Below, one piece after another: positions 18,921 through 34,592 of a stretch of 36,619 bases of DNA; the first letter of the stretch is position 1; each line of letters starts with the position of its first letter. The DNA lies in the NCBI GenBank assembly GCA_018056425.1, contig JAGPFR010000022.1, positions 1-36,619 on the forward strand, read 5' to 3'. The notes beneath the pieces were generated by a model. That model was not told the DNA's origin and ran no database searches. It saw only the letters and a program-made list of their open reading frames with translations. This DNA is from Lachnospiraceae bacterium (GTDB lineage Bacteria; Bacillota; Clostridia; Lachnospirales; Lachnospiraceae). A program made the position numbers and the translations under genes.

Positions 18921-18996
18921 CTATGGAATTTCTCCGGGTACCTCATTTTTAGATGCTCTTATGATAAAATAAAAAATGCATTTGGGAGGTACATAT

Positions 18997-19491
18997 ATGC
19001 ATAAATTGATCATGCTTCGCGGAAACTCAGGGAGCGGTAAAACAACTGTTGCGAAGGCACTTCAGGAGCTTTTCGGGCGTAATACCATGGTGCTTTCACA
19101 GGATATGATCAGAAGGGATGTTCTGAAAGCAAGAGACGGGATAGATCCGCCGGCGCTGCCGCTGATAAAGCAAATGCTTGAGTACGGAAGTAAGAACTGC
19201 GAAGTGGTAATTATGGAGGGGATATTTGTCGCTGAGTGGTACCGTGAACTGTTTGAAACGGCACTTGAGCTGTACGGCTCCGACATACTTGCGTACTATT
19301 TTGACATTCCGTTTGAAGAAACCGTGAGGCGCCATCAGACCAGGGATAAAGCTGCCGAGTTCGGGGCTGATGAGATGCGAAAGTGGTGGGTGGAAAAGGA
19401 TTATCTGGATCTGATACAAGAAACCATGATCACGGAAGATATGAGTAAGGAAAAAATCGTAAGCGAGATCTGTTCGAGAGTGAGAAATTGA
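18997..19491 (+). CDS. Small P-loop kinase (AAA, zeta-toxin/uridine kinase-like)
   Basis: 164 residues from ATG 18997, which follows GGGAGGT by six bases; ATG 18976 lies upstream of that site. Walker A is GNSGSGKTT (residues 9-17). MVLSQDMIRRDVL is the typical second strand with an acidic residue and Arg, VIMEGIF is the Walker B-like strand, and VRRHQTRDK resembles a lid with Arg residues. Likely phosphorylates a small molecule. First gene of a run with a methyltransferase and a HAD phosphatase; the methyltransferase follows after three bases. Confidence 0.8.
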   Translation: MHKLIMLRGNSGSGKTTVAKALQELFGRNTMVLSQDMIRRDVLKARDGIDPPALPLIKQMLEYGSKNCEVVIMEGIFVAEWYRELFETALELYGSDILAYYFDIPFEETVRRHQTRDKAAEFGADEMRKWWVEKDYLDLIQETMITEDMSKEKIVSEICSRVRN

Positions 19492-19494
19492 GTT

Positions 19495-20250
19495 ATGGCA
19501 AGTATTTATGACAGTGCGGATATTTATGACATTATTGAGGATGATACCCGCTATGAGATGTATGTAAAGCATTGGGAGAAGGTTCTCGGTGGCAAAGATA
19601 TAAAGTCGATATTGGATGTGAGCATCGGTACGGGAAGTGTTACACTTCCCGTTATGGACAGGGAGATTTCACTTTCGGGCTCGGACCTTAGTGAGTCCAT
19701 GCTCGCAAATTGCAGGAAGAAGATTGAGGCGAAGGGATTCAACCCGGATCTTAAATGCTCCGATTTCAGGGATCTGTCCTGCTGGGGTGACCGAACTTTT
19801 GACATGGTTGCAAGCACGGGGAATTCTCTTGCCTATGTTTCAAATGATGATGCGGCCAAAGCCCTTCGTGAGATGGATAAGCATGTTAATGAGGGCGGAT
19901 ACATATACATAGACATTCGCAACTGGGACAAGATAGTATCGGAGAAAACCAGGTTCTATGTCTACGATCCTTTCTTTGTGGGTGATACCAGACTCAATCT
20001 TATTCAGGTATGGGATCATAATGCTGACGGAACCGTTACATTCAATCTTCTGTATACCTTTGAAAAAGAAAACAGGATCTATCGCAAAGAGAAGTTTGAA
20101 GAGCACTATATTCCTCTTTCAAAGAACATTATTTTGAAAACTCTTGAAGAGATGGGATTTCACGATGTGAGCGTTATGGGATTCCCCTCGCAGCGCACCT
20201 ATGACGATATTGATAAAGTCGACTGGTTTACAATCGTAGCACAGAAGTAA
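19495..20250 (+). CDS. Class I SAM-dependent methyltransferase
   Basis: 251 residues. Motif I is ILDVSIGTGSVTLPVM, followed by the acidic end of strand 2 (SLSGSDLSESML), FDMVASTGNSLAYV as motif for strand 4, and GYIYIDIRNWD as strand 5. The C-terminal beta-rich part (VTFNLLYTFEKENRIYRKEK) is of the glycine/sarcosine-N-methyltransferase-like type. Acceptor unknown. Tightly packed: three bases after the kinase, eleven before the HAD gene. No strong ribosome site, so translation may be coupled. Confidence 0.88.
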   Translation: MASIYDSADIYDIIEDDTRYEMYVKHWEKVLGGKDIKSILDVSIGTGSVTLPVMDREISLSGSDLSESMLANCRKKIEAKGFNPDLKCSDFRDLSCWGDRTFDMVASTGNSLAYVSNDDAAKALREMDKHVNEGGYIYIDIRNWDKIVSEKTRFYVYDPFFVGDTRLNLIQVWDHNADGTVTFNLLYTFEKENRIYRKEKFEEHYIPLSKNIILKTLEEMGFHDVSVMGFPSQRTYDDIDKVDWFTIVAQK

Positions 20251-20261
20251 GTGAGGTAATA

Positions 20262-20876
20262 ATGGATACAGTTAAATGGCTGTTTTTTGATATCGGTTCC
20301 ACACTTGTTGACGAAAGCCATGTGTATGAGTACATATTCGGAACGCTTGCCGAAAAGTCAGGTAAAAGCATCGAATACATATATGATAAGGCGATGGAAT
20401 TCTATAGGCAGAATAAGAAGGGCGATAAGGAAGTTGCATCGCTCCTTGGATTGAAACCGCCTGCGTGGGATACCAAGCGTGAAAGGCTTTATCCGGATAC
20501 GGAAGAAGTCCTGATAAATCTGCATGAGAAATACAAGATTGGTATCATCGCAAATCAGATGTATGGAACCGAGGACAGACTTGAAGAATATGGGATCCGC
20601 CGCTTTATCGATGTTGTTGTGGCATCAGCGGAAGAGGGTGTGGAAAAGCCTGACAAAAGGATCTTTGAGATCGCATTTGAAAGAGCGGGATGCACACCTG
20701 ATGAAGCAGTTATGATCGGTGACCGTATCGATAACGACATTGTCCCGGCCAAAAAGCTTGGTATGAAAACCATTTGGATGAAACAGGGATTCGGCAGATT
20801 TTGGATAATAGGCGGTGATGAAGAAAAGCCCGATTACGAAGCAACATGTCTTACCGATTTATTAGATCTTTTATAA
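20262..20876 (+). CDS. HAD-superfamily hydrolase
   Basis: 204 residues. Motif I is WLFFDIGSTLVDES: the nucleophile Asp is present, but the second Asp of the usual D-x-D-x-T is Gly (D-I-G-S-T). Motif II is IGIIAN, motif III uses the Lys in GVEKPDKRIFEIA, and motif IV is VMIGDRIDNDIVPAKKLGMK, all as expected for the Cof/YjjG-like group. Loss of the second Asp occurs in some subgroups and may mean a changed reaction. Co-transcribed with the upstream kinase and methyltransferase; GTGAGG as ribosome site. Confidence 0.85.
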   Translation: MDTVKWLFFDIGSTLVDESHVYEYIFGTLAEKSGKSIEYIYDKAMEFYRQNKKGDKEVASLLGLKPPAWDTKRERLYPDTEEVLINLHEKYKIGIIANQMYGTEDRLEEYGIRRFIDVVVASAEEGVEKPDKRIFEIAFERAGCTPDEAVMIGDRIDNDIVPAKKLGMKTIWMKQGFGRFWIIGGDEEKPDYEATCLTDLLDLL

Positions 20877-20892
20877 CACTTAGGAGGGTGAT

Positions 20893-20976
20893 ATGGGATT
20901 ATTTGATTTATTTAAAAAGAAAACAGAACCTGAAACATCATCTGAAATTAATGAGGTAAACACTCAGGGTTTTTGA
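20893..20976 (+). pseudogene. Start of a truncated gene (27 codons)
   Basis: ATG 20893 stands behind an excellent TTAGGAGGGTGAT site and gives MGLFDLFKKKTEPETSSEIN, then stops at TGA 20974-20976. 'M-G-L-F-D-L-F-K-K-K' is a common start of several larger cytosolic proteins. Either a real 27-residue peptide or, more likely, the head of a gene lost by deletion: the sequence changes at once into a kinase fragment in another frame. Confidence 0.5.
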
Positions 20977-21064
20977 AAATGCATATTTCGTAATAGGAAC
21001 TGCATATGCGGGGAAGTCCACGACGGTTAAAGAACTTGCAGCAAAGTCCTTCGGACTTGCATAA
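20960..21064 (+). pseudogene. P-loop kinase fragment (Walker A only)
   Basis: In the frame opening after TAA 20957-20959, the sequence reads VFENAYFVIGTAYAGKSTTV, then KELAAKSFGLA and TAA 21062-21064. G-x-A-Y-A-G-K-S-T is a Walker A motif, recalling small ATP-binding kinases of Clostridia. There is no start codon and no rest of the protein. It is fused out of frame to the preceding 27-codon head. Confidence 0.65.
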
Positions 21065-21103
21065 GTTGCAACAAGTGCTTACGCTTATGGAATGCGTAGA
21101 TTA

Positions 21104-21145
21104 ATTCCTCTATGATCGAGATGTGAAGATCATGGAGGAATTTTT
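21104..21145 (+). terminator. Hairpin terminator 1 after the remnants
   Basis: ATTCCTCTATGATC / GATCATGGAGGAAT: 14-bp stem with one T-G pair and a 10-base loop, running into a short T-run. Confidence 0.7.
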
Positions 21146-21169
21146 ATGTGGAGAAAAATGTGCCTCAAA

Positions 21170-21208
21170 GGCTTCGGGAACTCGTGGGTGACCGAAGCCC
21201 TTTTTTTT
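21170..21208 (+). terminator. Hairpin terminator 2
   Basis: GGCTTCGG / CCGAAGCC stem with a 14-base loop, followed by eight T. It lies 62 bases behind terminator 1 and closes the left run of small-enzyme genes. Confidence 0.85.
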
Positions 21209-21254
21209 CATAATATATGGTAAAATATAAAGGTATTTTCGAAAGGAAGAAGCG

Positions 21255-21773
21255 ATGGTTATCCTGATCACGGGAGCATCTCATACGGGCAAGACCTTTC
21301 TGTCCCAGAAGATGCTGGAAAAATATAAATATCCGTACCTTTCCATTGACCACTTGAAGATGGGGCTCATCCGAAGCGGGAACACATCCCTTACTCCAAT
21401 GGATGACGATAAGCTTACCGGGTATCTTTGGCCCATAGTCCGGGAGATGGTAAAGACCGCGATAGAAAATAAGCAGAATCTTATCGTTGAAGGCTGTTAT
21501 ATTCCTTTTGACTGGCGTAAGGATTTTGATGCGAAGTATCTTGCGGATATCAGGTTCATTTGTCTTGCGATGACAGATGAGTATATCGATAAACATTTTG
21601 ACGACATTGTCCGCTGCGAGTCCGAGATTGAGAAGAGGATTATGGATCCGGATTACACGGTGGAAAGCGTTAAACGCGATAACAGGGAGTTTATCAAAGG
21701 CTTTTCCGAAAGCGGAGAGAGCATCACGCTGATAAATACCGATTACATTAAGACTATAGGATCAATACTTTAA
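21255..21773 (+). CDS. P-loop kinase-like protein
   Basis: 172 residues. MVILITGASHTGKTFLSQKM has Walker A GASHTGKT (residues 7-14). YPYLSIDHLKMGLIRSGN is the second strand with substrate-contacting residues, LIVEGCYIP the Walker B-like strand, and KRDNREFIKGF the C-terminal helix. Family resemblance is to adenylate kinase/shikimate kinase-like small ATPases of unknown substrate. AAAGGAAG precedes the ATG. AT-rich sequence between the terminator and this gene (21210-21240) presumably contains the promoter of a six-gene run ending at 24849. Confidence 0.8.
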   Translation: MVILITGASHTGKTFLSQKMLEKYKYPYLSIDHLKMGLIRSGNTSLTPMDDDKLTGYLWPIVREMVKTAIENKQNLIVEGCYIPFDWRKDFDAKYLADIRFICLAMTDEYIDKHFDDIVRCESEIEKRIMDPDYTVESVKRDNREFIKGFSESGESITLINTDYIKTIGSIL

Positions 21774-21779
21774 GGCATT

Positions 21780-22349
21780 ATGAAGAGAAAATCAGTAGCA
21801 CCTAATTTTTCGATGTGCGTTCAGCCGTCTTTTATCATCGGAACTTACAATGAAGACGGATCATATAATTTTGCACCCATCACATGGGTAAGTGCGACAT
21901 GTGAAGGCGGAGATAACTACATGCTTGTAATCAGCATGTACGGATCCAAGAGGACAAAACAGAACGTTATCAGAAACGGGAAGTTCAGCGCAAATCTTGT
22001 TAACAAGTCAATGCTTCCTCTTATGGATTATCTTGGAACCAAGCATTCATGTGACGCCAATACCGCTGAGGCTCATTACGGTGTGGGTAGCGGAGAAGTT
22101 ATGGACGTACCCACTTTGGATGACAGTCCCTGGGTTTATGAATGTGAAGTTGCAAAGTCTGTGGAGACAGGTGAGTCCACTACATTCTTCTGTCCCATCC
22201 GTAATGTTCAGATGGATGAGAATGTTTTCTGCGAAAATACTTTTGATGTGGATCTTACTAAATTTGATCCCGTCATATATTCCGGAAGATATCACAGCCT
22301 CGGTAAATTCCTCGGCAGGATCGGTGATTTCAGAAATACCGGAAAATAA
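21780..22349 (+). CDS. Flavin reductase-family protein
   Basis: 189 residues. SFIIGTYNEDGSYNFAPITW and SMYGSKRTKQNVIRNGKFSA are the flavin-binding strands of the split-barrel flavin reductase family; FSANLVNKSMLPLMDYLGTK follows. It ends in VIYSGRYHSLGKFLGRIGDF, matching the family end. Presumably binds FMN and uses NAD(P)H; the physiological acceptor is unknown. It starts six bases behind the kinase stop with hardly any ribosome site, suggesting coupled translation. Confidence 0.88.
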   Translation: MKRKSVAPNFSMCVQPSFIIGTYNEDGSYNFAPITWVSATCEGGDNYMLVISMYGSKRTKQNVIRNGKFSANLVNKSMLPLMDYLGTKHSCDANTAEAHYGVGSGEVMDVPTLDDSPWVYECEVAKSVETGESTTFFCPIRNVQMDENVFCENTFDVDLTKFDPVIYSGRYHSLGKFLGRIGDFRNTGK

Positions 22350-22358
22350 GGAGCGGTC

Positions 22359-23078
22359 ATGGCAGGTTCAATAGCTGATTACAGAAAAATGGTGGAGCAG
22401 CCCTGGGGCAAGATGTTTTACGAGCAGATCTTTGCACAGCTGCCTCTGCCTGAAGATAATAGATTAAAGATTCTTGATTTCGGAGCGGGCTTTTGCATTA
22501 CCTCGGAGCACTATGCAAAGTTCCATGATGTAATAGCAGTTGAACCTAACGAAGAAATGTACAGTGTAAGATTTGAAGGTGACTATACTCTTATCACTAA
22601 GGGAATAGAGTTCCTTTCAGAGATTGCTGATAACACTTATGACGTCGTCATCTGCCACAACGTTTTGGAATATGTTGATGACAAGGACGTGATTCTTAAA
22701 GAGCTTGGAAGAGTGCTAAAGTCCGGCGGAAAGTTATCCGTTATCAAGCACAACATTTATGGAAGAGCACTGGCAAGTGCGGTTTTCGGTGATGATCCCA
22801 AAGTGTCTCTCGATCTTTTAAACGGAGAATCTGAGGACAGCATGTTCGGAAACAGGGATGTTTATCCTAACGAGTATCTGACCGGTTTCTTTTCCGGAGA
22901 GATGGAACTTGAGAATGTTTATGGAATTAGAGCATTCTTCGGACTTTCCAAAAACAACGAGATCAAGTACACAGAAGACTGGTATACCGCCATGCTTGAA
23001 CTTGAAAACAAGGCAAGCTCCATGGATGAGTACAAGAGGATCGCATTCTTTAATCACCTGATACTTACCAAAAACTGA
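22359..23078 (+). CDS. Class I SAM-dependent methyltransferase
   Basis: 239 residues. Motif I is ILDFGAGFCITSEHYA, with VIAVEPNEEMYSV as strand 2 (acidic end), YDVVICHNVLEYVDD as strand 4 and GGKLSVIKHNIYGRAL as strand 5: the UbiE/type 11 pattern. The acceptor is unknown. AAGGAG eight bases ahead of the ATG. Member of the 21255-24849 run. Confidence 0.9.
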   Translation: MAGSIADYRKMVEQPWGKMFYEQIFAQLPLPEDNRLKILDFGAGFCITSEHYAKFHDVIAVEPNEEMYSVRFEGDYTLITKGIEFLSEIADNTYDVVICHNVLEYVDDKDVILKELGRVLKSGGKLSVIKHNIYGRALASAVFGDDPKVSLDLLNGESEDSMFGNRDVYPNEYLTGFFSGEMELENVYGIRAFFGLSKNNEIKYTEDWYTAMLELENKASSMDEYKRIAFFNHLILTKN

Positions 23079-23092
23079 TATCCCCTAAATAT

Positions 23093-23569
23093 ATGGAATA
23101 CAGAAAGATAGAAAAATCGGACGATCCTTCACTTGCAATTATCATTAGGAAGAATCTGAAGGCGCATAAACTGGATATTCCCGGTACCGCATACTTCGAT
23201 GATAATCTTGATCACTTAAGCGATTATTATCTGGCGGATGCTGACAAAAGGTTTTACCTTGTTGCCACAGAAGACGACTCAGTTGTAGGCGGAATCGGAG
23301 TGGATAAGCTGGACCTTTTTGAAAACTGTGCGGAGCTTCAAAAGCTTTACTTGGACGATCCTGTTAAAGGCCACGGCTACGGATATGAAATGATCCGCAT
23401 GATCGAGGATAAAGCAAGGGGACTTGGATACAGTAAGATATATCTGGAGACTCACACAAATCTCCCCACTGCGATTCATATGTATGAAAAGAGCGGTTAC
23501 AGGGAGATAGATAAGCCGGAAGGAGTTATTCATTCGACTATGAATAAATTCTTCATCAAAGATCTGTAG
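23093..23569 (+). CDS. GNAT family N-acetyltransferase
   Basis: 158 residues. AELQKLYLDDPVKGHGYGYE contains the acetyl-CoA loop (K-G-H-G-Y-G), and IYLETHTNLPTAIHMYEKSG is the last strand and helix of the fold. The acceptor is unknown. There is no ribosome site before ATG 23093, 14 bases behind the methyltransferase, so translation probably depends on the upstream gene. Confidence 0.9.
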   Translation: MEYRKIEKSDDPSLAIIIRKNLKAHKLDIPGTAYFDDNLDHLSDYYLADADKRFYLVATEDDSVVGGIGVDKLDLFENCAELQKLYLDDPVKGHGYGYEMIRMIEDKARGLGYSKIYLETHTNLPTAIHMYEKSGYREIDKPEGVIHSTMNKFFIKDL

Positions 23570-23581
23570 AGGATTTGATCA

Positions 23582-24178
23582 GTGAACATTTACGTGGATT
23601 TTGATGACTGCCTTTGTGAGACCGCAAGACATTTCTCAGGCCTTGCGAAGGATATGTTTGGGACAAATGTTCCCTACGAGAATATAAATTTCTTCAATCT
23701 TCAAAAGTCATTTTCCCTTTCCGACAAGCAGTACGAGGATATGATGGCCGAAGCTCACAAGCCGGAAATACTCCTGTCATATGCGGAGACTCCGGGAGCT
23801 GCTGATACGCTTAACAGCTGGGTGGATGAGGGACATGACGTTTCCGTTATCACCGGCAGACCATTCAATTCCTTTGAACCTTCGAGGGAATGGCTTGATC
23901 GTCACCGCCTCGGCAGGATCAAACTCTATTGTCTTAATAAGTACGGCAGGGATTCTTTTTATCAAAATACCGAATACAGCCTTGAACTGGAAGATTATTA
24001 CAAGATGCATTTTGACATTGCGGTTGAAGATTCGCCTCATGCATTTAAATTCTTCGATCATCTCCCGGATCTTAAGATACTGGTTTATGACCGGCCGTGG
24101 AATCATAATGTAGAACTCCCCGGAGATAATTACATAAGGTGCTTTGATTGGAATGAAATAGAAAGGAATGCAAAATGA
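23582..24178 (+). CDS. HAD-like nucleotidase (5'-nucleotidase C type)
   Basis: 198 residues from GTG 23582, supported by GAGGAT upstream and by the family start. MNIYVDFDDCLCETARHFSG holds a complete D-x-D-D-x-x-x-E motif I; DVSVITGRPF is motif II and FDIAVEDSPHAFKFF motif IV. This resembles 5'(3')-deoxyribonucleotidase-like proteins, which dephosphorylate nucleotides; here the substrate is an inference. It overlaps the next HAD gene by four bases (ATGA). Confidence 0.8.
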   Translation: MNIYVDFDDCLCETARHFSGLAKDMFGTNVPYENINFFNLQKSFSLSDKQYEDMMAEAHKPEILLSYAETPGAADTLNSWVDEGHDVSVITGRPFNSFEPSREWLDRHRLGRIKLYCLNKYGRDSFYQNTEYSLELEDYYKMHFDIAVEDSPHAFKFFDHLPDLKILVYDRPWNHNVELPGDNYIRCFDWNEIERNAK

Positions 24179-24849
24179 TTAAAGCGGTGATCTTTGATAT
24201 GTTCGAAACTCTTGTGTCCTTGTTTGAAGGACGAACATATTTCGGCGAGCACATAGCTGCGGACGTGGGGATAGATCCTGCTGCTTTCAGAAAAGAATGG
24301 CATTCAATTGAAAAAGACAGAAGCATCGGAATATACAGTATCGAAGAGGGACTTGAAGTTGTCCTGAAAAGACTCGGCATATACTCGGCAGAAAAAGTAG
24401 AACTTGCGGCATCAAAGAGGCGTGACAGCCTGACGGATACTTTTAACGGTATCCCCGATGCAACCTTTGATATGCTCGATGAATTGAAAAAGAGAAATAT
24501 CAGGATCGGACTTATTACAAATACATTCTCGGATGAGCGTGATTTTATAAGAGCGAGCAGGCTGTTCCCGTATTTTGACGTGGCACTTATCTCTTATGAA
24601 CAGGGAGTCTGTAAACCTGATCCCGAGATATACAGGCGCATGCTGGTTGAGCTCGGACTTAAACCTGAAGAGTGCCTCTATGTGGGTGACGGAGGTTCGA
24701 ATGAACTGTATGCTGCAAGAGACGCGGGGATGCACCCTGTTCAGTGCACATGGTTCCATGATATGGCCTACGAGCCACATATCCCGTGTCCGATACTTGA
24801 TGAGTTTGACCGTGCGGACAAAACGCTTGATATCCTTAAATATCTCTGA
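24175..24849 (+). CDS. HAD-superfamily hydrolase
   Basis: 224 residues. Motif I is VIFDMFETLVSLFEG: nucleophile Asp present, but Phe in place of the second Asp (D-M-F-E-T), the pattern of haloacid-dehalogenase-like members. Motif II is IGLITNTFSDE, Lys in GVCKPDPEIYRRM, and motif IV CLYVGDGGSNELYAARDAG. Probably a phosphatase or dehalogenase-like hydrolase of a small metabolite. Translationally coupled to the nucleotidase, last gene of its run, followed by a terminator. Confidence 0.88.
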   Translation: MIKAVIFDMFETLVSLFEGRTYFGEHIAADVGIDPAAFRKEWHSIEKDRSIGIYSIEEGLEVVLKRLGIYSAEKVELAASKRRDSLTDTFNGIPDATFDMLDELKKRNIRIGLITNTFSDERDFIRASRLFPYFDVALISYEQGVCKPDPEIYRRMLVELGLKPEECLYVGDGGSNELYAARDAGMHPVQCTWFHDMAYEPHIPCPILDEFDRADKTLDILKYL

Positions 24850-24896
24850 TCCAGGCCACTAAAACGTTTACTTCACAAATAATTAACGCTGTTTAT

Positions 24897-24936
24897 AAAA
24901 AAATAAGGATAGGGTTATACCTGTCCTTATTTTTTT
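24897..24936. terminator. Bidirectional intrinsic terminator
   Basis: AAAAAAATAAGGATAGG - GTTATA - CCTGTCCTTATTTTTTT: long stem with one G-T pair, six-base loop, and A/T tracts on both sides. Separates the HAD gene from the hydrogenase-fusion gene. Confidence 0.9.
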
Positions 24937-24952
24937 GTGTAATGATATGCGA

Positions 24953-24984: not shown

Positions 24985-27591
24985 ATGGCAAAAGGTTTAG
25001 TCTATACAAATGAAAAATGCGTAGGCTGTAACAAATGTGTTGCGGTATGCAGTGCAATGGGAGCATGTATCTCCACCGTAGCCGATGCGAAAGGTAATTC
25101 CAGAATAAACGTCGATCCGTCCAGATGCGTCGGGTGCGGCGCTTGTTTTGATGTCTGCGAGCACGGAGCAAGGGAATTTTGTGACGATACGGATACATTC
25201 CTTGCAGATCTTGAGGCGGGCAAGGAAATCTCTGTTCTTGTAGCACCTTCATTTCGTGCCAATTATCCCGATGAATACGAAAAAGTGCTCGGCGGTCTCA
25301 AAGCCCTGGGCGTCAAACATATCATAAATGCAGCTTTCGGTGCGGACATCACTACCTGGGGCTATATCAAATACATGCAGGAAAACGGCTTTAGAGGCGG
25401 CATTTCACAGCCCTGTCCCGCCGTTGTTACATATATCGAAAAATATCTTCCGGAACTTCTGCCCAAACTTTTCCCCGTGCAGAGTCCTCTTATGTGTACC
25501 GCCATCTATGCGAAAAAAGAACTGGGTATAACCGATAAGCTTGCGTTTATCAGCCCCTGTATAGCCAAGAAGCTTGAGATCGACGATCCCGAGAATTCGG
25601 GCCTTGTCGATTACAACGTTACATTCAGACATTTGATGAAGATGGTTCGCGAGAAAGGCATTTACGGCGAGCCTGTTACGGATGAGATCGAATACGGTCT
25701 GGGTTCAATCTACCCCATGCCCGGCGGGCTTAAAGATCATGTTAAGTGGTTCCTCGGAGACGGTGCATTTATTCGTCAGATTGAAGGCGAAAAGCAGATG
25801 TACGATTATCTCAGAAAGCAGTCCTCACAGCTTGCCGGCAAGGATAATCCTTTCCTGTTTATAGACGCACTCAATTGTAAGGACGGGTGTTTGTGCGGAA
25901 CCGGAACGGAGCCCGAACTTGCTTTTACCGACAAGGCACTCTTTAATCTCCTGAAGATCCGTGAGGATCTGAAAAAAGAAAATAAAGACCCTGCTTTATC
26001 GCGTGAGCTCACTCCGGAGCAGCGGCTTGAAGCTCTCAATAAACAGTTCGGGAATCTGAATCTTTCGGATTATCTGCGCCATTATACGGATCTTTCTTCG
26101 AGGTGTGCGATCAGGACGCCGAGCGAAGAAGAACTTGATAACATCTTCCTTACGATGCAAAAGGATACTCCCGAATCCCGCGTGATCAACTGCGGTTCCT
26201 GCGGATACAATACCTGTAAGGAAATGGCGACAGCCATCTATAACGGATTCAACCACCGCGACAACTGCGTTCACTATTTGAAGAATGCGATCGAAGCGGA
26301 GCACAAGAGTCTTATCTATAATGCCCAGCATGATGAACTTCTCGGAATCTACAACCGAAGTTATGCAATGGATCTTCTTATAATTAACGGGGATTATTGG
26401 AAGAACGCTTCCTTTGTAATGGCTGATATTGATGGCTTTAAGGGTATCAATACGACATACGGACATGAACTTGCCGATCAGATCCTTATGAATGCAGCGG
26501 TAGGATTGCTTAAACTGGCCAAGGATAAAGGCTGGCTTTTATCCAGATACGGCGGAGACGAATATCTGATCTGTCTGCCCGAACCCATGACTGAAGATCA
26601 TCCATTCATGGAGCTTATCCGTGGAGTATTCGAGCAGCCTTTCAGACTCGGGAGTATCGAGCTTCAGCTGTCTGCATGTATGGGCGTATCCAATACCGAC
26701 GGACACCTCAGCGTTGAAGAAAATATAAACAATGCTGAAGAAGCTATGCATGAAGCTAAGAAGCTCGGTCATAACCGTACTGTTTTCTACAGTGAGATTC
26801 TTCAGGAGAAAGCAAGAGAAGAAAAGATCATTCGCGAGAAGATCGTGGATGCTTTTGAAAATGACGGGTTTTATATAGTTTACCAGCCGAAGGTTGATGC
26901 GCAGTCAGTCACGCTCTGCGGATACGAGGCACTGATAAGAATGAAGGAGCCGGGATTCGGACCGGGTCAGTTTATTCCCATTGCGGAAAAGCATGGATGG
27001 ATCTGGAGAATCGGACGTATGACGACGGAGCTTGTTGTCAGGCAGCTGTCCGATTGGAGAAAAGCGGGTTATGAGCTTCATCCTGTCTCCGTAAACTTCT
27101 CCAGCAATCAGCTTAGTGATACGGGTTATGTTGATTTCCTTGCAGATCTTTTGAAGCAGTACGACATTCCTTCGAAGTATGTTGAGATAGAGATCACGGA
27201 AGGTATTTTCCTGGATCGTTCGTCACAGGTTGAGGAGCTGTTCAGGAAATTTAAGGAGCTCGGCATAAGGCTTCTTATGGATGATTTCGGAACGGGATAT
27301 TCTTCACTCGGATATCTGACATACATACCCGTTGATACTATCAAACTGGATAAATCACTTGTCGACAATTATCTGATCGATGGCAAGGATGCATTTATTA
27401 ATGACGTTATCAGACTGGTTCACCATCTTGATAAGGAGATGACCATTGAAGGTGTTGAAGAAGAATGGCAATACAGCCGTTTGAGAGAATTCGGTGCGGA
27501 CACGATACAGGGATTCTACTTCAGTAAGCCTCTTCCTGCGGATGAAGCGATAAACTTTATTCCGGGCGTCAATCGGGATGAACAAAGATAA
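24985..27591 (+). CDS. Hydrogenase-like sensor fused to GGDEF and EAL domains
   Basis: 868 residues, no membrane segment. Order: two [4Fe-4S] ferredoxin motifs (C12/C15/C18/C22 and C48/C51/C54/C58); an [FeFe]-hydrogenase catalytic-type domain with the three H-cluster motifs SQPCPA (C144), ISPCIAKK (C192) and LNCKDGC (C298, C302); a further FeS motif NCGSCGYNTC with C428; GGDEF with DIDGFKGI and RYGGDEY (523-527); EAL (648-650) with EIEITEG, MDDFGTGYSSL, IKLDKS and IEGVEEE. The cluster ligands are kept, but the proton-relay Cys next to C144 is Pro, as in sensory rather than turnover hydrogenases. Predicted: a cytoplasmic protein coupling H2 or redox state to c-di-GMP synthesis or breakdown. 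Start ATG 24985 has a distant TAGGAAAA. Confidence 0.9.
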   Translation: MAKGLVYTNEKCVGCNKCVAVCSAMGACISTVADAKGNSRINVDPSRCVGCGACFDVCEHGAREFCDDTDTFLADLEAGKEISVLVAPSFRANYPDEYEKVLGGLKALGVKHIINAAFGADITTWGYIKYMQENGFRGGISQPCPAVVTYIEKYLPELLPKLFPVQSPLMCTAIYAKKELGITDKLAFISPCIAKKLEIDDPENSGLVDYNVTFRHLMKMVREKGIYGEPVTDEIEYGLGSIYPMPGGLKDHVKWFLGDGAFIRQIEGEKQMYDYLRKQSSQLAGKDNPFLFIDALNCKDGCLCGTGTEPELAFTDKALFNLLKIREDLKKENKDPALSRELTPEQRLEALNKQFGNLNLSDYLRHYTDLSSRCAIRTPSEEELDNIFLTMQKDTPESRVINCGSCGYNTCKEMATAIYNGFNHRDNCVHYLKNAIEAEHKSLIYNAQHDELLGIYNRSYAMDLLIINGDYWKNASFVMADIDGFKGINTTYGHELADQILMNAAVGLLKLAKDKGWLLSRYGGDEYLICLPEPMTEDHPFMELIRGVFEQPFRLGSIELQLSACMGVSNTDGHLSVEENINNAEEAMHEAKKLGHNRTVFYSEILQEKAREEKIIREKIVDAFENDGFYIVYQPKVDAQSVTLCGYEALIRMKEPGFGPGQFIPIAEKHGWIWRIGRMTTELVVRQLSDWRKAGYELHPVSVNFSSNQLSDTGYVDFLADLLKQYDIPSKYVEIEITEGIFLDRSSQVEELFRKFKELGIRLLMDDFGTGYSSLGYLTYIPVDTIKLDKSLVDNYLIDGKDAFINDVIRLVHHLDKEMTIEGVEEEWQYSRLREFGADTIQGFYFSKPLPADEAINFIPGVNRDEQR

Positions 27592-27601
27592 AGGGGGACA
27601 T

Positions 27602-28231
27602 ATGAACGAAAATATAACAAAAAGAAACACTCTTCTCGCACAGAAGGTTATCAAGGGTCTGGAATCCCGTAATATGAATGGATATTATGCAGAAAATAAG
27701 GAAGATGCTTTGAAGCTTGCCCTTGAGCTGATACCCGAAAACTCTTCCGTAACCATGGGCGGTGCCATGAGCGCTCATGAGATCGGCCTTGTAGAGGCAC
27801 TTAAAGCCGGAAAGTATAACTTCATCGACAGGGATAAGGCAGAGGATAAGAGGGCTGCGATGCTTGCGGCATATGATGCCGACTTTTTCCTGACCAGTGC
27901 GAATGCAATGACTGAAGACGGCGTTATGGTCAATATCGACGGCAACTCCAACAGGGTTTCGGCGATTGCACAGGGTCCCAGGCATGTGCTGGTAATAGTG
28001 GGGATGAACAAGATCTGTCCCGATGTTGATGCTGCCATGAAGAGAGCGAGAAATGTAGCGGCTCCCATCAATGCACAGCGCTTCGGCCTTAATACTCCCT
28101 GTGCAAAGACCGGATCCTGCATGAACTGCAAATCCCCCGATACCATCTGCTGTCAGTTCCTTATCACCAGATTTTCAAGACACGAGGGCAGGATTCATGT
28201 CATCCTTGTAAATGATTCGCTCGGATTCTAA
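27602..28231 (+). CDS. LUD-domain protein (lactate-utilisation family)
   Basis: 209 residues from ATG 27602, which follows AAAGGGGGA directly; the earlier ATG 27578 overlaps the previous gene and lacks a site. ENSSVTMGGAMSAHEIGLVE and FFLTSANAMTEDGVMVNIDG are the conserved core of LUD (DUF162) proteins, and the Cys-rich end CAKTGSCMNCKSPDTICC is a usual feature. Some members (LutC) take part in lactate oxidation; short solitary members like this have no assigned role. The gap to the sensor gene is 10 bases, so both are likely co-transcribed. Confidence 0.88.
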   Translation: MNENITKRNTLLAQKVIKGLESRNMNGYYAENKEDALKLALELIPENSSVTMGGAMSAHEIGLVEALKAGKYNFIDRDKAEDKRAAMLAAYDADFFLTSANAMTEDGVMVNIDGNSNRVSAIAQGPRHVLVIVGMNKICPDVDAAMKRARNVAAPINAQRFGLNTPCAKTGSCMNCKSPDTICCQFLITRFSRHEGRIHVILVNDSLGF

Positions 28232-28244
28232 AGGAGTTTAGGTA

Positions 28245-28661
28245 ATGGAACCTGTCAGGGATTATGTACATACCGTTCAGTATTACGAAACGGACAAGAT
28301 GGGAATAACCCATCACTCGAACTATATCAGATGGATGGAAGAGGCAAGGGTTGATTTCCTGGATCAGATCGGCTGGAACTACGCAAAGCTCGAAGAGAGC
28401 GGGATCATTTCCCCCGTCATCAACGTTACATGTGATTTCAAGCGCACGACAACATTTTCGGATGTTATCACGATAAGCGCGTCCGTCAGGGAATTTAACG
28501 GAGTTAAGCTTAAGTTTGCATATGAGATGAAGAATGCGGAAGGGACCGTGGTCTTTACCGCAACTTCCATGCATGCCTTTTTGAATCATGAAGGCAGACC
28601 TGTCAGGATGAAGCAGGATTATCCCGAGTTATACGAGACAATAATGAGCCTGGTCCGGTAA
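28245..28661 (+). CDS. Acyl-CoA thioesterase, YbgC/4HBT family
   Basis: 138 residues, normal for a hotdog-fold thioesterase. YYETDKMGITHHSNYIRWME is the signature region: the Asp-x-x-G-x-x-(H/Y)-H/N-x-x-Y-x-x-(W/F)-x-E pattern with the catalytic Asp. It ends with AFLNHEGRPVRM, as expected. It hydrolyses an acyl-CoA or acyl-ACP; chain preference is unknown. AAAGGAG precedes the start. Last gene of the three-gene run starting at 24985. Confidence 0.92.
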   Translation: MEPVRDYVHTVQYYETDKMGITHHSNYIRWMEEARVDFLDQIGWNYAKLEESGIISPVINVTCDFKRTTTFSDVITISASVREFNGVKLKFAYEMKNAEGTVVFTATSMHAFLNHEGRPVRMKQDYPELYETIMSLVR

Positions 28662-28723: not shown

Positions 28724-28746
28724 AGGGCGTGGAAACGCCCTTTTTT
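28724..28746 (+). terminator. Intrinsic terminator after the thioesterase
   Basis: AGGGCGT - GGAA - ACGCCCT followed by TTTTT. A smaller hairpin (GTGCAA/TTGCAC, 28704-28717) precedes it. Confidence 0.85.
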
Positions 28747-32086: not shown

Positions 32087-32293
32087 ATGATCATTACAGT
32101 AGCAGGTGAAAAGAAAGAATACAAAGACGGACTTACTCTTCCCGAGCTTCTTACAGCAGAGAATGTTGAGATGCCCGAGTATGTAACCGTATCCATCAAC
32201 GAGGAGTTCGTTGAATCCGATAAGAAGGAATCCACCGTTCTTAAGGACGGAGACAATGTTGAATTCCTTTACTTCATGGGAGGTGGATGCTGA
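32087..32293 (+). CDS. ThiS/MoaD-like sulfur carrier ending in Gly-Gly-Gly-Cys
   Basis: 68 residues with the ubiquitin-like fold pattern: MIITVAGEKKEYKDGLTLPE, VTVSINEEFVES, VLKDGDNVEFLYFMGGGC. Sulfur carriers normally end in Gly-Gly, which is adenylated and thiocarboxylated. Here an extra Cys68 follows G65-G67, so the tail would need trimming before activation; a JAMM protease is encoded two genes on. This matches the published logic of HcyS, which carries one extra C-terminal residue removed by HcyD. ATG 32087 follows TTAGGAGAATGAGG. The last Gly codons also form the ribosome site of the next gene. Confidence 0.85.
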   Translation: MIITVAGEKKEYKDGLTLPELLTAENVEMPEYVTVSINEEFVESDKKESTVLKDGDNVEFLYFMGGGC

Positions 32294-33108
32294 TGGCTCT
32301 TACAGATGAACAGCTTGAGAGATATTCCAGACATATTATTCTCAAGGAAGTAGGCGCTAAGGGACAGAAGAAACTCCTTAACGCGAAGGTACTTATAATA
32401 GGTGCCGGCGGACTCGGAGCTCCCGCAGCAATGTATCTTGCGGCAGCAGGCGTAGGCCACATCGGAATCGTTGATGCCGATGTAGTCGATCTTTCAAACC
32501 TTCAGAGACAGATCATTCACCAGACCGCAGATGTTGGCAAAGCAAAGGTTCAGTCTGCCAAGGAAACCATGAATGCGATGAACCCCGATGTCGAGGTTAC
32601 CACTTACAGGGAGTTCGTATATTCGGACAACATTCAGCAGCTTATCCGCGATTATGATTTCATCATCGACGGAACCGACAACTTTCCTGCAAAGTTCCTT
32701 ATCAATGATGCATGCGTCCTTGAAAAGAAACCATTCTCACACGCAGGTATCATCAGATTCAAAGGCCAGCTCATGACATATGTTCCCGGACAGGGCCCCT
32801 GCTACAGATGTGTGTTCAAGAATCCCCCGCCAAAGGATGCTGTTCCTACCTGCAAGCAGGCAGGGGTTATCGGAGCAATGGGCGGCGTGATCGGAAGCCT
32901 TCAGGCAATGGAAGCTATCAAGTACATCATAGGAGTAGGTGATCTTCTCACCGGATATCTCCTTACATATGATGCACTTACCATGGAGTTCCACAAGATC
33001 AAACTGCCTAAGGATACTCATAATTGTGCTGTATGCGGAGATCATCCCACCATACTCAAACCCATTGATTATGAACAGCCCGCTTGTGAACTCAAGTCAC
33101 ATGCGTAA
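32293..33108 (+). CDS. ThiF/MoeB-like E1 adenylyltransferase
   Basis: 271 residues from ATG 32293, which overlaps the carrier's stop as TGATG and sits seven bases behind GGGAGGTGG. ERYSRHIILKEVG at the start; nucleotide-binding IIGAGGLGAPAA (37-42 is GAGGLG); DADVVDLSNLQRQIIH; the substrate loop IIDGTDNFPAKFLIND; and paired zinc cysteines CYRC and CAVC. All core elements of MoeB/ThiF-type enzymes are present. It should adenylate the C-terminal Gly of the carrier for sulfide addition. No rhodanese domain is attached, so sulfur may be delivered as free sulfide. Confidence 0.92.
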   Translation: MALTDEQLERYSRHIILKEVGAKGQKKLLNAKVLIIGAGGLGAPAAMYLAAAGVGHIGIVDADVVDLSNLQRQIIHQTADVGKAKVQSAKETMNAMNPDVEVTTYREFVYSDNIQQLIRDYDFIIDGTDNFPAKFLINDACVLEKKPFSHAGIIRFKGQLMTYVPGQGPCYRCVFKNPPPKDAVPTCKQAGVIGAMGGVIGSLQAMEAIKYIIGVGDLLTGYLLTYDALTMEFHKIKLPKDTHNCAVCGDHPTILKPIDYEQPACELKSHA

Positions 33109-33125
33109 CAGATTTAGGAGATAAA

Positions 33126-33557
33126 ATGGCAGTCGTAAGGATAGATTTTCATTTATATGATGATATTGTAAAATACGCCAAAGAACATTTGCCCGAGGAA
33201 GCATGCGGACTTATCGCAGGCGAAGAGACGGCGGAAGGAAAGCTTGTTAAGAAAGTATATTTCCTTACAAATGTAGACCATGCAGAGGACCATTTCACGT
33301 TGGATCCCAAGGAACAGCTTGATGCGATCAAGGATATGAGAGCAAACTCACTTAAGCCCCTCGGCAATTGGCACTCACATCCGGAATCACCTTCAAGGCC
33401 TTCCGAAGAAGATATCAGACTTTCTTACGATAAGAATGCCAGCTATTTTATCCTGTCACTTATGGCGGAAAATCCCGTACTGAATTCTTTTCACGTAGAG
33501 AACGGTATAGTGACGAAGGAAGATCTCAGGATCATATCCGAGAAATATTATTATTGA
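33126..33557 (+). CDS. JAMM/MPN+ metalloprotease (Mec/HcyD-like)
   Basis: 143 residues. E25 in EEACG and the motif GNWHSHPESPSRPSEEDI give H83-x-H85, S93 and D96, the full JAMM zinc site. Small bacterial JAMM proteins of this type (Mec, HcyD) cut after the Gly-Gly of sulfur carriers: they release amino acids built on the carrier, or remove a blocking residue. The neighbouring carrier with an extra Cys is the obvious substrate. AGGAG precedes ATG 33126; 17 bases separate it from the E1 gene. Confidence 0.92.
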   Translation: MAVVRIDFHLYDDIVKYAKEHLPEEACGLIAGEETAEGKLVKKVYFLTNVDHAEDHFTLDPKEQLDAIKDMRANSLKPLGNWHSHPESPSRPSEEDIRLSYDKNASYFILSLMAENPVLNSFHVENGIVTKEDLRIISEKYYY

Positions 33558-33578
33558 AAGTGAAGTTTTAGATTTGAT

Positions 33579-34592
33579 ATGAAAAGACATATTTTAATAA
33601 AGACCGTATCAGTTCTCACATCTCTTTTTCTGCTTGCAGGATGCGGCAGTGGAAATGTACAGACTGAGGTAAATGTTGAAACCGAAATTGAAACCTCTGA
33701 AGTAGAGATAAATTCAGCTGCAGAACCTTCTCAGGATGCTGCTGAGGTCCAAGCACCCGAAGAGTATGTTTTCACTGATGCCCTTGGAAGAGAGGTTACC
33801 GTAAGCACCGCGGATAATGTTGCCGTCCTTCTCGGAAGCTTTGCCGATGTATGGATGCTTGCAGGCGGTGAAGTAAATGCGGTTGTAAGCGATGCGTTCG
33901 GAAATTACGATCTTGCGAAAGGAACCATCGATCTCGGTAGAATGCTTGAGCCCAATGTCGAAGCGCTTATCGCATCCGAACCTGATTTTGTAATAGCAAG
34001 TGCGGGAACAGATGCTCAGGTAGAACTCCTTGATACCTTTGAATCCGCAGGACTTAACGTAGCGTATTTCGAAGTATCCGATTTTGATGATTATCTGAAC
34101 ATGCTGGATACTCTTACCGATATTACCGGCAGGAAGGAACTTTTTGAACAGTATGGAACCCGACTTGCTCAGGAGATAGATGCCATCAAAGAATCGATTC
34201 CCGATACCCATCCTACTGTTTTATTTATCAGAGCCGCGGCAAGTTCCGTTAAAGCAAGGGGCAGTGAAGGAACAGTCGGAGGAGAGATACTTGCAGATCT
34301 CGGATGCATCAACATTGCAGATTCCGACAGTGCGATACTTGACGATCTGAGCCTTGAAGCGATCGTTGCAGCAGATCCGGATTTCATCTTTGTAACAACT
34401 CAGGGAGATGATAAGGAAGCAGCGCTTGCAAATGTCCAGGATCTTCTCATTAATAATCCCGCCTGGTCACAGCTTTCTGCTGTTCAGAACGGACATTATT
34501 ATGAGATCGAAAAAGAACTTTATAATTCCAAACCCAATGCAAGATGGGCGGAAGCATATGAAAAACTCGTAGATATTTTATACGGAGAGTGA
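33579..34592 (+). CDS. FecB/BtuF-type substrate-binding lipoprotein
   Basis: 337 residues. Signal peptide with lipobox L-A-G-C and lipidated C22, then a Glu/Ser/Ala-rich linker of about 40 residues. The binding domain begins YVFTDALGREVTVSTADNVA and shows IDLGRMLEPNVEALIASEPD, the typical class III pattern for ferric-siderophore, heme or cobalamin binding proteins. It ends WAEAYEKLVDILY. With the permease (35194) and ATPase (36200) it should make one ABC importer. The ribosome site is weak. A metal chelate or tetrapyrrole as ligand is an inference. Confidence 0.9.
   Translation: MKRHILIKTVSVLTSLFLLAGCGSGNVQTEVNVETEIETSEVEINSAAEPSQDAAEVQAPEEYVFTDALGREVTVSTADNVAVLLGSFADVWMLAGGEVNAVVSDAFGNYDLAKGTIDLGRMLEPNVEALIASEPDFVIASAGTDAQVELLDTFESAGLNVAYFEVSDFDDYLNMLDTLTDITGRKELFEQYGTRLAQEIDAIKESIPDTHPTVLFIRAAASSVKARGSEGTVGGEILADLGCINIADSDSAILDDLSLEAIVAADPDFIFVTTQGDDKEAALANVQDLLINNPAWSQLSAVQNGHYYEIEKELYNSKPNARWAEAYEKLVDILYGE

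Follow-up and report, generated by a model that had tools for sequence, protein, structure and literature searches.

A single gene of a rumen-type bacterium of the Lachnospiraceae joins an [FeFe]-hydrogenase-like module to both a GGDEF and an EAL domain, and it raises the question of whether H2, or the redox state of the cell, is reported to c-di-GMP in this anaerobe. The window analysed here is the whole stretch of 36,619 nucleotides carrying the gene, and its relevant features are the following.

24894..24939, + strand: terminator-like hairpin with a 20-bp stem and a U run, separating the fusion gene from the HAD gene upstream of it (folding energy -24.9 kcal/mol, z -7.5 versus shuffles)
24985..27591, + strand: fusion gene, 868 aa, in the order 2x[4Fe-4S] ferredoxin - [FeFe]-hydrogenase H-domain - Fe-S - GGDEF - EAL
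25018..25158, + strand: two CX2CX2CX3C ferredoxin motifs (C12, 15, 18, 22 and C48, 51, 54, 58), by Pfam and motif reading
25225..25899, + strand: H-domain PF02906, residues 81-305, by Pfam
25399..25428, + strand: L1 motif GISQPCPAVV; C144 = CpI C300, and P143 replaces the proton-relay Cys (CpI C299)
25552..25572, + strand: L2 motif SPCIAKK; C192 = CpI C355, K195 = CpI K358, and S190 stands at M353
25864..25902, + strand: L3 motif DALNCKDGCLCGT, core DALNCKDGC; C298/C302 = CpI C499/C503, and L296 stands at M497
26191..26268, + strand: C-terminal Fe-S motif CX2CX4CX16C (PF04060), residues 403-428, by Pfam and motif
26269..26328, + strand: helix 429-448, leading from the Fe-S domain to the output; predicted with modest confidence, and from a comparison of junctions in 10 proteins
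26323..26778, + strand: GGDEF domain, residues 447-598, with GGDEY at 523-527 and no RxxD I-site
26836..27531, + strand: EAL phosphodiesterase domain, residues 618-849, catalytic residues all present
27602..28231, + strand: LUD-domain gene (PF02589), likely on the same transcript as the fusion gene
28245..28661, + strand: 4HBT thioesterase-like gene, likely the last gene of the transcript
28724..28741, + strand: terminator-like hairpin after the thioesterase gene, one of 7 found versus 3.8 (sd 1.7) in shuffles

The fusion gene and its transcript

The open reading frame starts with ATG and runs without interruption, and its reverse complement is not open, stops being present. A Pfam scan of the protein finds Fer4_7 (residues 11-62), Fe_hyd_lg_C (PF02906, residues 81-305, E 9e-32, 111 bits versus a cut-off of 22), FeS/PF04060 (residues 401-429), GGDEF (PF00990, residues 447-598, E 8e-22) and EAL (PF00563, residues 618-849, E 8e-58), the Fe-S motif being spelled C403-X2-C406-X4-C411-X16-C428. 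Pfam and motif reading thereby confirm what the earlier note had read from the letters, namely ferredoxin, three H-cluster, extra Fe-S, GGDEY and EAL motifs within one polypeptide. PF02906, PF04060, PF00990 and PF00563 are all present in 22 of the 22 fusions scanned (the window and 21 of the 22 named fusions; L153, a near copy of L152, was left out), and the domain architecture is thus far beyond chance. MCP, kinase and GGDEF outputs are exchanged at helix 429-448, right after the Fe-S domain, as seen at the junctions of the 10 proteins. A predicted full-length model recovers the domains with no reliable mutual arrangement (pTM 0.42). The search of a plasmid collection matched 20 records, the best at 38% identity, and the 9 PHROGs matches are confined to the GGDEF/EAL half of the protein.

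The strong hairpin upstream, which a pattern scan did not list, suggests that the fusion gene starts its own transcript; the same scan gave no promoter-like site between the hairpin and the gene. With hairpins both before the fusion gene and after the thioesterase gene, the fusion, LUD and thioesterase genes probably form one transcript. For the LUD gene, an ATG behind a GGGGG stretch at 27602 is a more probable start than the 27578 of the ORF list. The earlier note regarded these two downstream genes as possible regulated targets or partners; although likely in one operon with the fusion gene, they are not general targets, for the synteny is seen only in the closest kin (L094-L097, together with L106-L108 of the same genomes) and in no other fusion locus examined. 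Among ten fusion loci at greater distance, inspected by eye, no neighbour is common to all. Elsewhere in the window, a run of small enzyme genes upstream (18976-24849; kinase-like, methyltransferases, GNAT, HAD phosphatases, flavin reductase, mostly named by eye) is partly kept in close kin, and ThiF/MoeB-like, MPN-domain and solute-binding protein genes, also named by eye, stand in a row at 32287-34592.

The H-domain and its place among known sensors

The H-domain has a genuine [FeFe]-hydrogenase fold. Aligned with CpI and other solved hydrogenases, C144, C192, C298 and C302 are in register with the cubane cysteines, and together with K195 they are invariant in a 68-row module alignment (the window and 67 of the 80 named modules); their CpI counterparts I take to be C300, C355, C499 and C503, and K358 for the lysine. 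A non-H-cluster Fe-S look-alike, which the earlier note had named as a finding that would overturn its claim, is ruled out by the Pfam match, the fold and the aligned ligand residues. Residues diagnostic of sensory forms are replaced in the same way as in published HydS, with Pro for C299, Ser for M353, Leu for M497 and Tyr (Y243) for F417; sensory forms are reported to have Pro at C299 in about 10% and Ser at M353 in about 32% of cases in the relevant passages of PMC10055695. At the position of CpI Q325, sensory modules have Leu or Met and, in one case, Val, and the window's module has neither the group A nor the group D proton relay. K195, A87-P88 and S167-P168, presumably equivalent to the [2Fe]-lining residues K358, A230-P231 and S323-P324, are invariant in the 59-row pocket comparison described below. 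All four cysteines ligate the cubane, hence they are no proof of a [2Fe] subsite. Fold, ligands and residue changes agree with the claim of the earlier note that a sensory-type [FeFe]-hydrogenase fold is joined here to c-di-GMP enzyme domains.

In a 48-row tree the window's module shares a clade (100/100) with modules fused to MCP or kinase outputs, and the rows taken by motif as groups A, B, C-with-PAS and D lie outside it; in this tree long branches meet at the module clade (as the tool warned), and a long branch separates the module from the characterised groups. To my knowledge, no member of this clade has been characterised. The HydDB table (PMC5037454) gives kinase (C1), chemotaxis (C2, 'Chemotactic (putative)') and phosphatase (C3) as the only outputs of [FeFe] sensors, and no c-di-GMP output is present in it. 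The window's module is kin of group C2 and not filed as C2, this label following from the MCP link in the same table: the same module bears MCP signalling domains in 50 of 80 loci, including the same-genome paralogue L003, whereas the window's output is GGDEF-EAL. In Clostridium acetogens, C2 enzymes are described in passages of PMC9431212 as possible H2 sensors acting via chemotaxis proteins.

TamHydS (group D) shares with the window the order of ferredoxin, H-domain and CX2CX4CX16C (a motif named for TamHydS in PMC6984386), Ser at M353, Leu at M497 and the loss of C299 (relevant passages of PMC6984386, PMC11803613, PMC10407848 and PMC13104023), but it has no output domain, and its S249/E252 relay is missing from the window (P246/L249). 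Nor does the window's module belong to group D, since in the 48-row tree, with its long-branch warning, it lies outside the clade of 8 rows taken as group D by motif; two of these eight (L190, L192) are also without the Glu. TmHydS (group C with PAS) is likewise similar in having Tyr at F417 (Y243 in the window), a small residue at M353 and no C299 (PMC10055695, in part), but its C-terminal end is a PAS domain, for which the Pfam scan found no counterpart after the Fe-S domain of the window's protein, and in the same tree the PAS-type rows have a clade of their own. On plasmid pRUMAL01 of Ruminococcus albus 7 (L209:363-9280), a PAS-type sensory hydrogenase occurs with Rex, adhE and a SpoIIE phosphatase gene; lying beside the SpoIIE gene, this sensor resembles the PAS-type rows by eye, which supports that group labelling.

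As for the link to c-di-GMP, [NiFe] group 2c, 'Diguanylate cyclase-linked (putative)' in the HydDB table (PMC5037454), also ties H2 sensing to c-di-GMP, but it is an unrelated [NiFe] enzyme class and is linked to synthesis rather than breakdown. DosP and DibA, which NCBIfam matches at scores far below cut-off, have the same order of sensor, GGDEF and EAL and a complete EAL site, but their sensor is not an H-domain, DosP being named oxygen-sensing. Prior characterisation of this architecture would also have told against the earlier note; among the matches listed, neither the HydDB table, as far as it goes, nor the open-access literature holds a characterised example of an [FeFe] sensor tied to GGDEF or EAL. 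In PMC12727194, EAL/GGDEF appears as a row of a gene-set table, within a study of [NiFe]-hydrogenase and succinate dehydrogenase neighbourhoods, and PMC10787695 deals in its relevant passages with separate genes and not with a fusion. The new aspect is the GGDEF-EAL output on an already known kind of sensor.

The output half: probable breakdown of c-di-GMP

The residues which I take to make up the EAL catalytic set (E648, N704, E736, D766, D767, K787, E822 and Q842 in the window) are invariant in all 24 fusion rows, i.e. the window, the 22 named loci and L060. Of these 24 rows, 17 have a degenerate GG[DE]E[FY] motif and 7 keep it, the window together with its closest kin making up five of the 7; the RxxD that would precede the motif is absent throughout, the window having DKGW there. 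An invariant EAL site beside a mostly degenerate GGDEF points to c-di-GMP hydrolysis by EAL as the activity kept by selection in these fusions. The earlier note had seen in the two domains a switch between synthesis and breakdown, in which GGDEF would make and EAL would break c-di-GMP, the sensor choosing between them. Bifunctional GGDEF-EAL proteins are known, and the window's own GGDEF keeps GGDEY, D481, N489 and D498; against the counts just given, such a switch is nonetheless unlikely.

The sensory module is found in 26 of the 31 genomes of the window's genus at E 1e-60 or better. Six genomes have the GGDEF-EAL form, judged by ORF length and sequence, and the remaining complete copies resemble MCP or hybrid histidine-kinase forms by length, one of each being confirmed by Pfam; the latter, a third output form in the genus (L088-L093), joins the module to HisKA-HATPase-REC-Hpt in about 1050 aa (Pfam for L088 only). 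A scan of relatives, with one genome per species, gave 359, the best 80 of which were kept as named loci; among these 80 there are 50 MCP, 22 GGDEF-EAL and 7 kinase outputs and one that is cut, so that outputs are exchanged on one and the same module. Taxon names of these relatives (e.g. Treponema, Christensenellaceae) are those of the MAG titles. A single-sequence search saw GGDEF in 14 of the 22 named fusions, versus 22 of 22 in the Pfam-scanned set.

The fusions fall into two clades, whose sensory halves are 64-66% identical on average and whose GGDEF and EAL domains are 20% and 35% identical, respectively; this high sensory versus low output identity suggests that two different GGDEF-EAL pairs were joined separately to one module. 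The tree of the sensory halves also splits the GGDEF-EAL fusions, yet the AU test does not reject a single clade (p 0.288), and the case for two joinings thus rests on the output halves. The host probably makes use of c-di-GMP signalling, given 32 GGDEF matches and one PilZ match in its genome, and the fusion protein would then be one input among many. In Acetoanaerobium noterae (L208:1-8351), an MCP-fused module is flanked by GGDEF/HD-GYP and GGDEF-EAL genes (by eye), as if the link existed there unfused. A GGDEF-looking gene, again by eye, lies near 3 of 10 distant fusion genes (L110:7995-9314, L113:2389-3804, L152:6606-8108).

Maturases and the nature of the signal

The earlier note presupposed maturation of the H-cluster by HydEFG, a premise which the host does not bear out: its genome has no match for HydG or HydE, and the best of 27 HydF candidates, all of them scored, reaches 87 bits versus a cut-off of 326. 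Across the genus (the host and 30 others), HydE, HydF and HydG are each over cut-off in 0 of 31 genomes, with at most the best 20 HydF candidates scored per genome; the control Thermotoga maritima is over cut-off for all three. H2 sensing is therefore not secured. Matches below cut-off occur in the genus for the HydG family (3 of 31) and the HydE family (7 of 31). HydG-family matches of 186-189 bits (cut-off 312) in G007, G016 and G025 are perhaps ThiH-like, and HydE-family matches of 109-222 bits (cut-off 255) occur outside the genus in G039, G053, G063 and G064; matches below cut-off could hide divergent maturases. That maturases were missed through incomplete assembly (the host is 90.8% complete) is unlikely, none being over cut-off in the 30 further genomes of the genus, even in G027 (99% complete, 10 contigs) and G011 (98%, 9 contigs). 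The single-contig G067 (99%), outside the genus, also has no maturase over cut-off.

An H-domain protein is present in 77 of 78 related genomes (G000-G077). Of these 77, 21 match HydE, HydF and HydG (G077 being counted here though its HydF match is truncated and below cut-off), 3 match some of the three and 53 have no maturase over cut-off, as is the case in 27 of the 46 genomes with a completeness of 90% or more and a contamination of 5% or less. Among 34 named-locus genomes searched for HydG and HydF (all 22 fusion loci and 12 chosen others, of 80), 14 have HydG and 16 HydF over cut-off, and 18 neither; for the 22 fusion genomes the figures are 7 with both, 2 with HydF only and 13 with neither. 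The genus set above already includes the genomes of L106-L109. Absence of HydEFG beside hydrogenases is already known in kind, and its extent in the present sample looks large; a literature search found no discussion of it for gut or rumen clostridia, and hydEFG homologues are treated in parts of PMC8898433 in the setting of equol gene clusters.

Presence or absence of maturases makes no difference to how well the sensor pocket is conserved: 27 of the 31 listed positions, including the four Cys and the Lys, are invariant in 59 rows, and the other four (89, 142, 169, 245) vary around the same commonest residue in both classes, which comprise 16 maturase-positive rows (two HydF-only genomes included) and 43 negative ones (40 distinct). 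The catalytic enzymes examined in maturase-free genomes keep canonical motifs (loci including L001, L039, L099 and L103), e.g. TSCCP, PCIAKK and MVCPGGC in the host's group B hydrogenase and TSCCPAW, MPCLAKK, FGSTGGV and MACPGGC in the group A enzyme of G067. Group A enzymes of the genus, read in 5 genomes, have TSCSPGW, with Ser at the C300 position; such TSCSPGW hydrogenases (L022, L039-L043 and other loci) occur in genomes with and without maturases. In G027 (L101:7363-11093), a group B hydrogenase is followed directly, in the same orientation, by an MCP-fused sensor, and an H-domain protein is close to the sensor also in G001, G017 and G030 (contig coordinates).

The H-cluster may be assembled by some other route; if not, [4Fe-4S] clusters would be all that the sensor uses. 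In the latter case the protein would be an Fe-S redox (or O2) sensor without a [2Fe] subsite, its four cysteines holding just the [4Fe-4S] half of the H-cluster, and c-di-GMP breakdown would track ferredoxin or redox state and not H2. I regard this as a serious possibility, albeit less probable than the explanation preferred below: the lack of all three maturases across the genus, cysteines that ligate the cubane, Leu at M497, mostly Leu or Met at Q325, the missing relays of groups A and D and a pocket equally conserved in both classes, as expected if maturases were never needed, are all in its favour. Along the same line, in the relevant passages of PMC10407848, replacement of E252 in TamHydS leaves <0.01% of H2 oxidation, and E289D leaves <=3% of oxidation and 70% of evolution. 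The window has P246 for S249, L249 for E252 and D294 for the second relay Glu, E289, so that L249 and D294 would disfavour easy H2 turnover, which helps to keep the redox reading alive at its present weight, though a sensor need not turn over fast. Conversely, the residues presumed to line [2Fe] are also invariant, TamHydS works with an H-cluster despite Leu at M497, and catalytic hydrogenases of maturase-free genomes keep their motifs, so that absence of HydEFG is no proof against an H-cluster. It is possible, though doubtful, that in the genus and in many related clostridia an unknown route replaces HydEFG and gives a working H-cluster to catalytic hydrogenases and sensor alike, and that the sensor is a real H2-to-c-di-GMP switch. 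A hydrogenase merely carrying the c-di-GMP half, with no signalling between the two, would equally have a genuine H-domain fold, but the sensory-type replacements at catalytic relay positions and the recurrence of the same module with MCP and kinase outputs make this highly improbable.

The best explanation, which I hold with moderate confidence, is a soluble sensor in which the sensory-type [FeFe]-hydrogenase module, made up of ferredoxin, H-domain and C-terminal Fe-S domain, regulates a c-di-GMP phosphodiesterase. A change in the region of the H-cluster, which I infer to be brought about by H2, or by a redox state set by H2, at a putative [2Fe] subsite, would alter the shape of the module; the change would pass through the Fe-S domain and helix 429-448 to the GGDEF-EAL half and raise or lower the hydrolysis of c-di-GMP by EAL. 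GGDEF would mainly be a regulatory partner domain, and the window's own copy may still be active. In TamHydS, H2 changes the secondary structure and the C-terminal cluster is not reduced, according to passages of PMC13104023, and by analogy a conformational route would be more likely than electron delivery to the cluster. The absence of HydE, HydF and HydG over cut-off counts against this explanation, for the [2Fe] subsite cannot come from the known route. So do L249 and D294 at the TamHydS relay positions, Leu or Met at Q325, the long branch of the module and a full-length model that leaves the domain arrangement unreliable. Of the claim that H2 or redox state is reported to c-di-GMP, the joining of a sensory module to c-di-GMP enzymes stands, and the H2 part is weakened by a host without HydEFG.

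If the soluble-sensor reading is true, c-di-GMP breakdown would be a fourth kind of output of sensory [FeFe] hydrogenases, beside the three of HydDB, and attachment or movement in the gut or rumen, where H2 shapes fermentation and methane, could be steered by H2 or redox state. The genus is also a sharp test case, for its [FeFe]-hydrogenase sites are conserved although HydE, HydF and HydG are all below cut-off or absent in each of the 31 genomes, and strain V9D3004, in which the same fusion architecture occurs with HydG and HydF present, makes a direct comparison possible.
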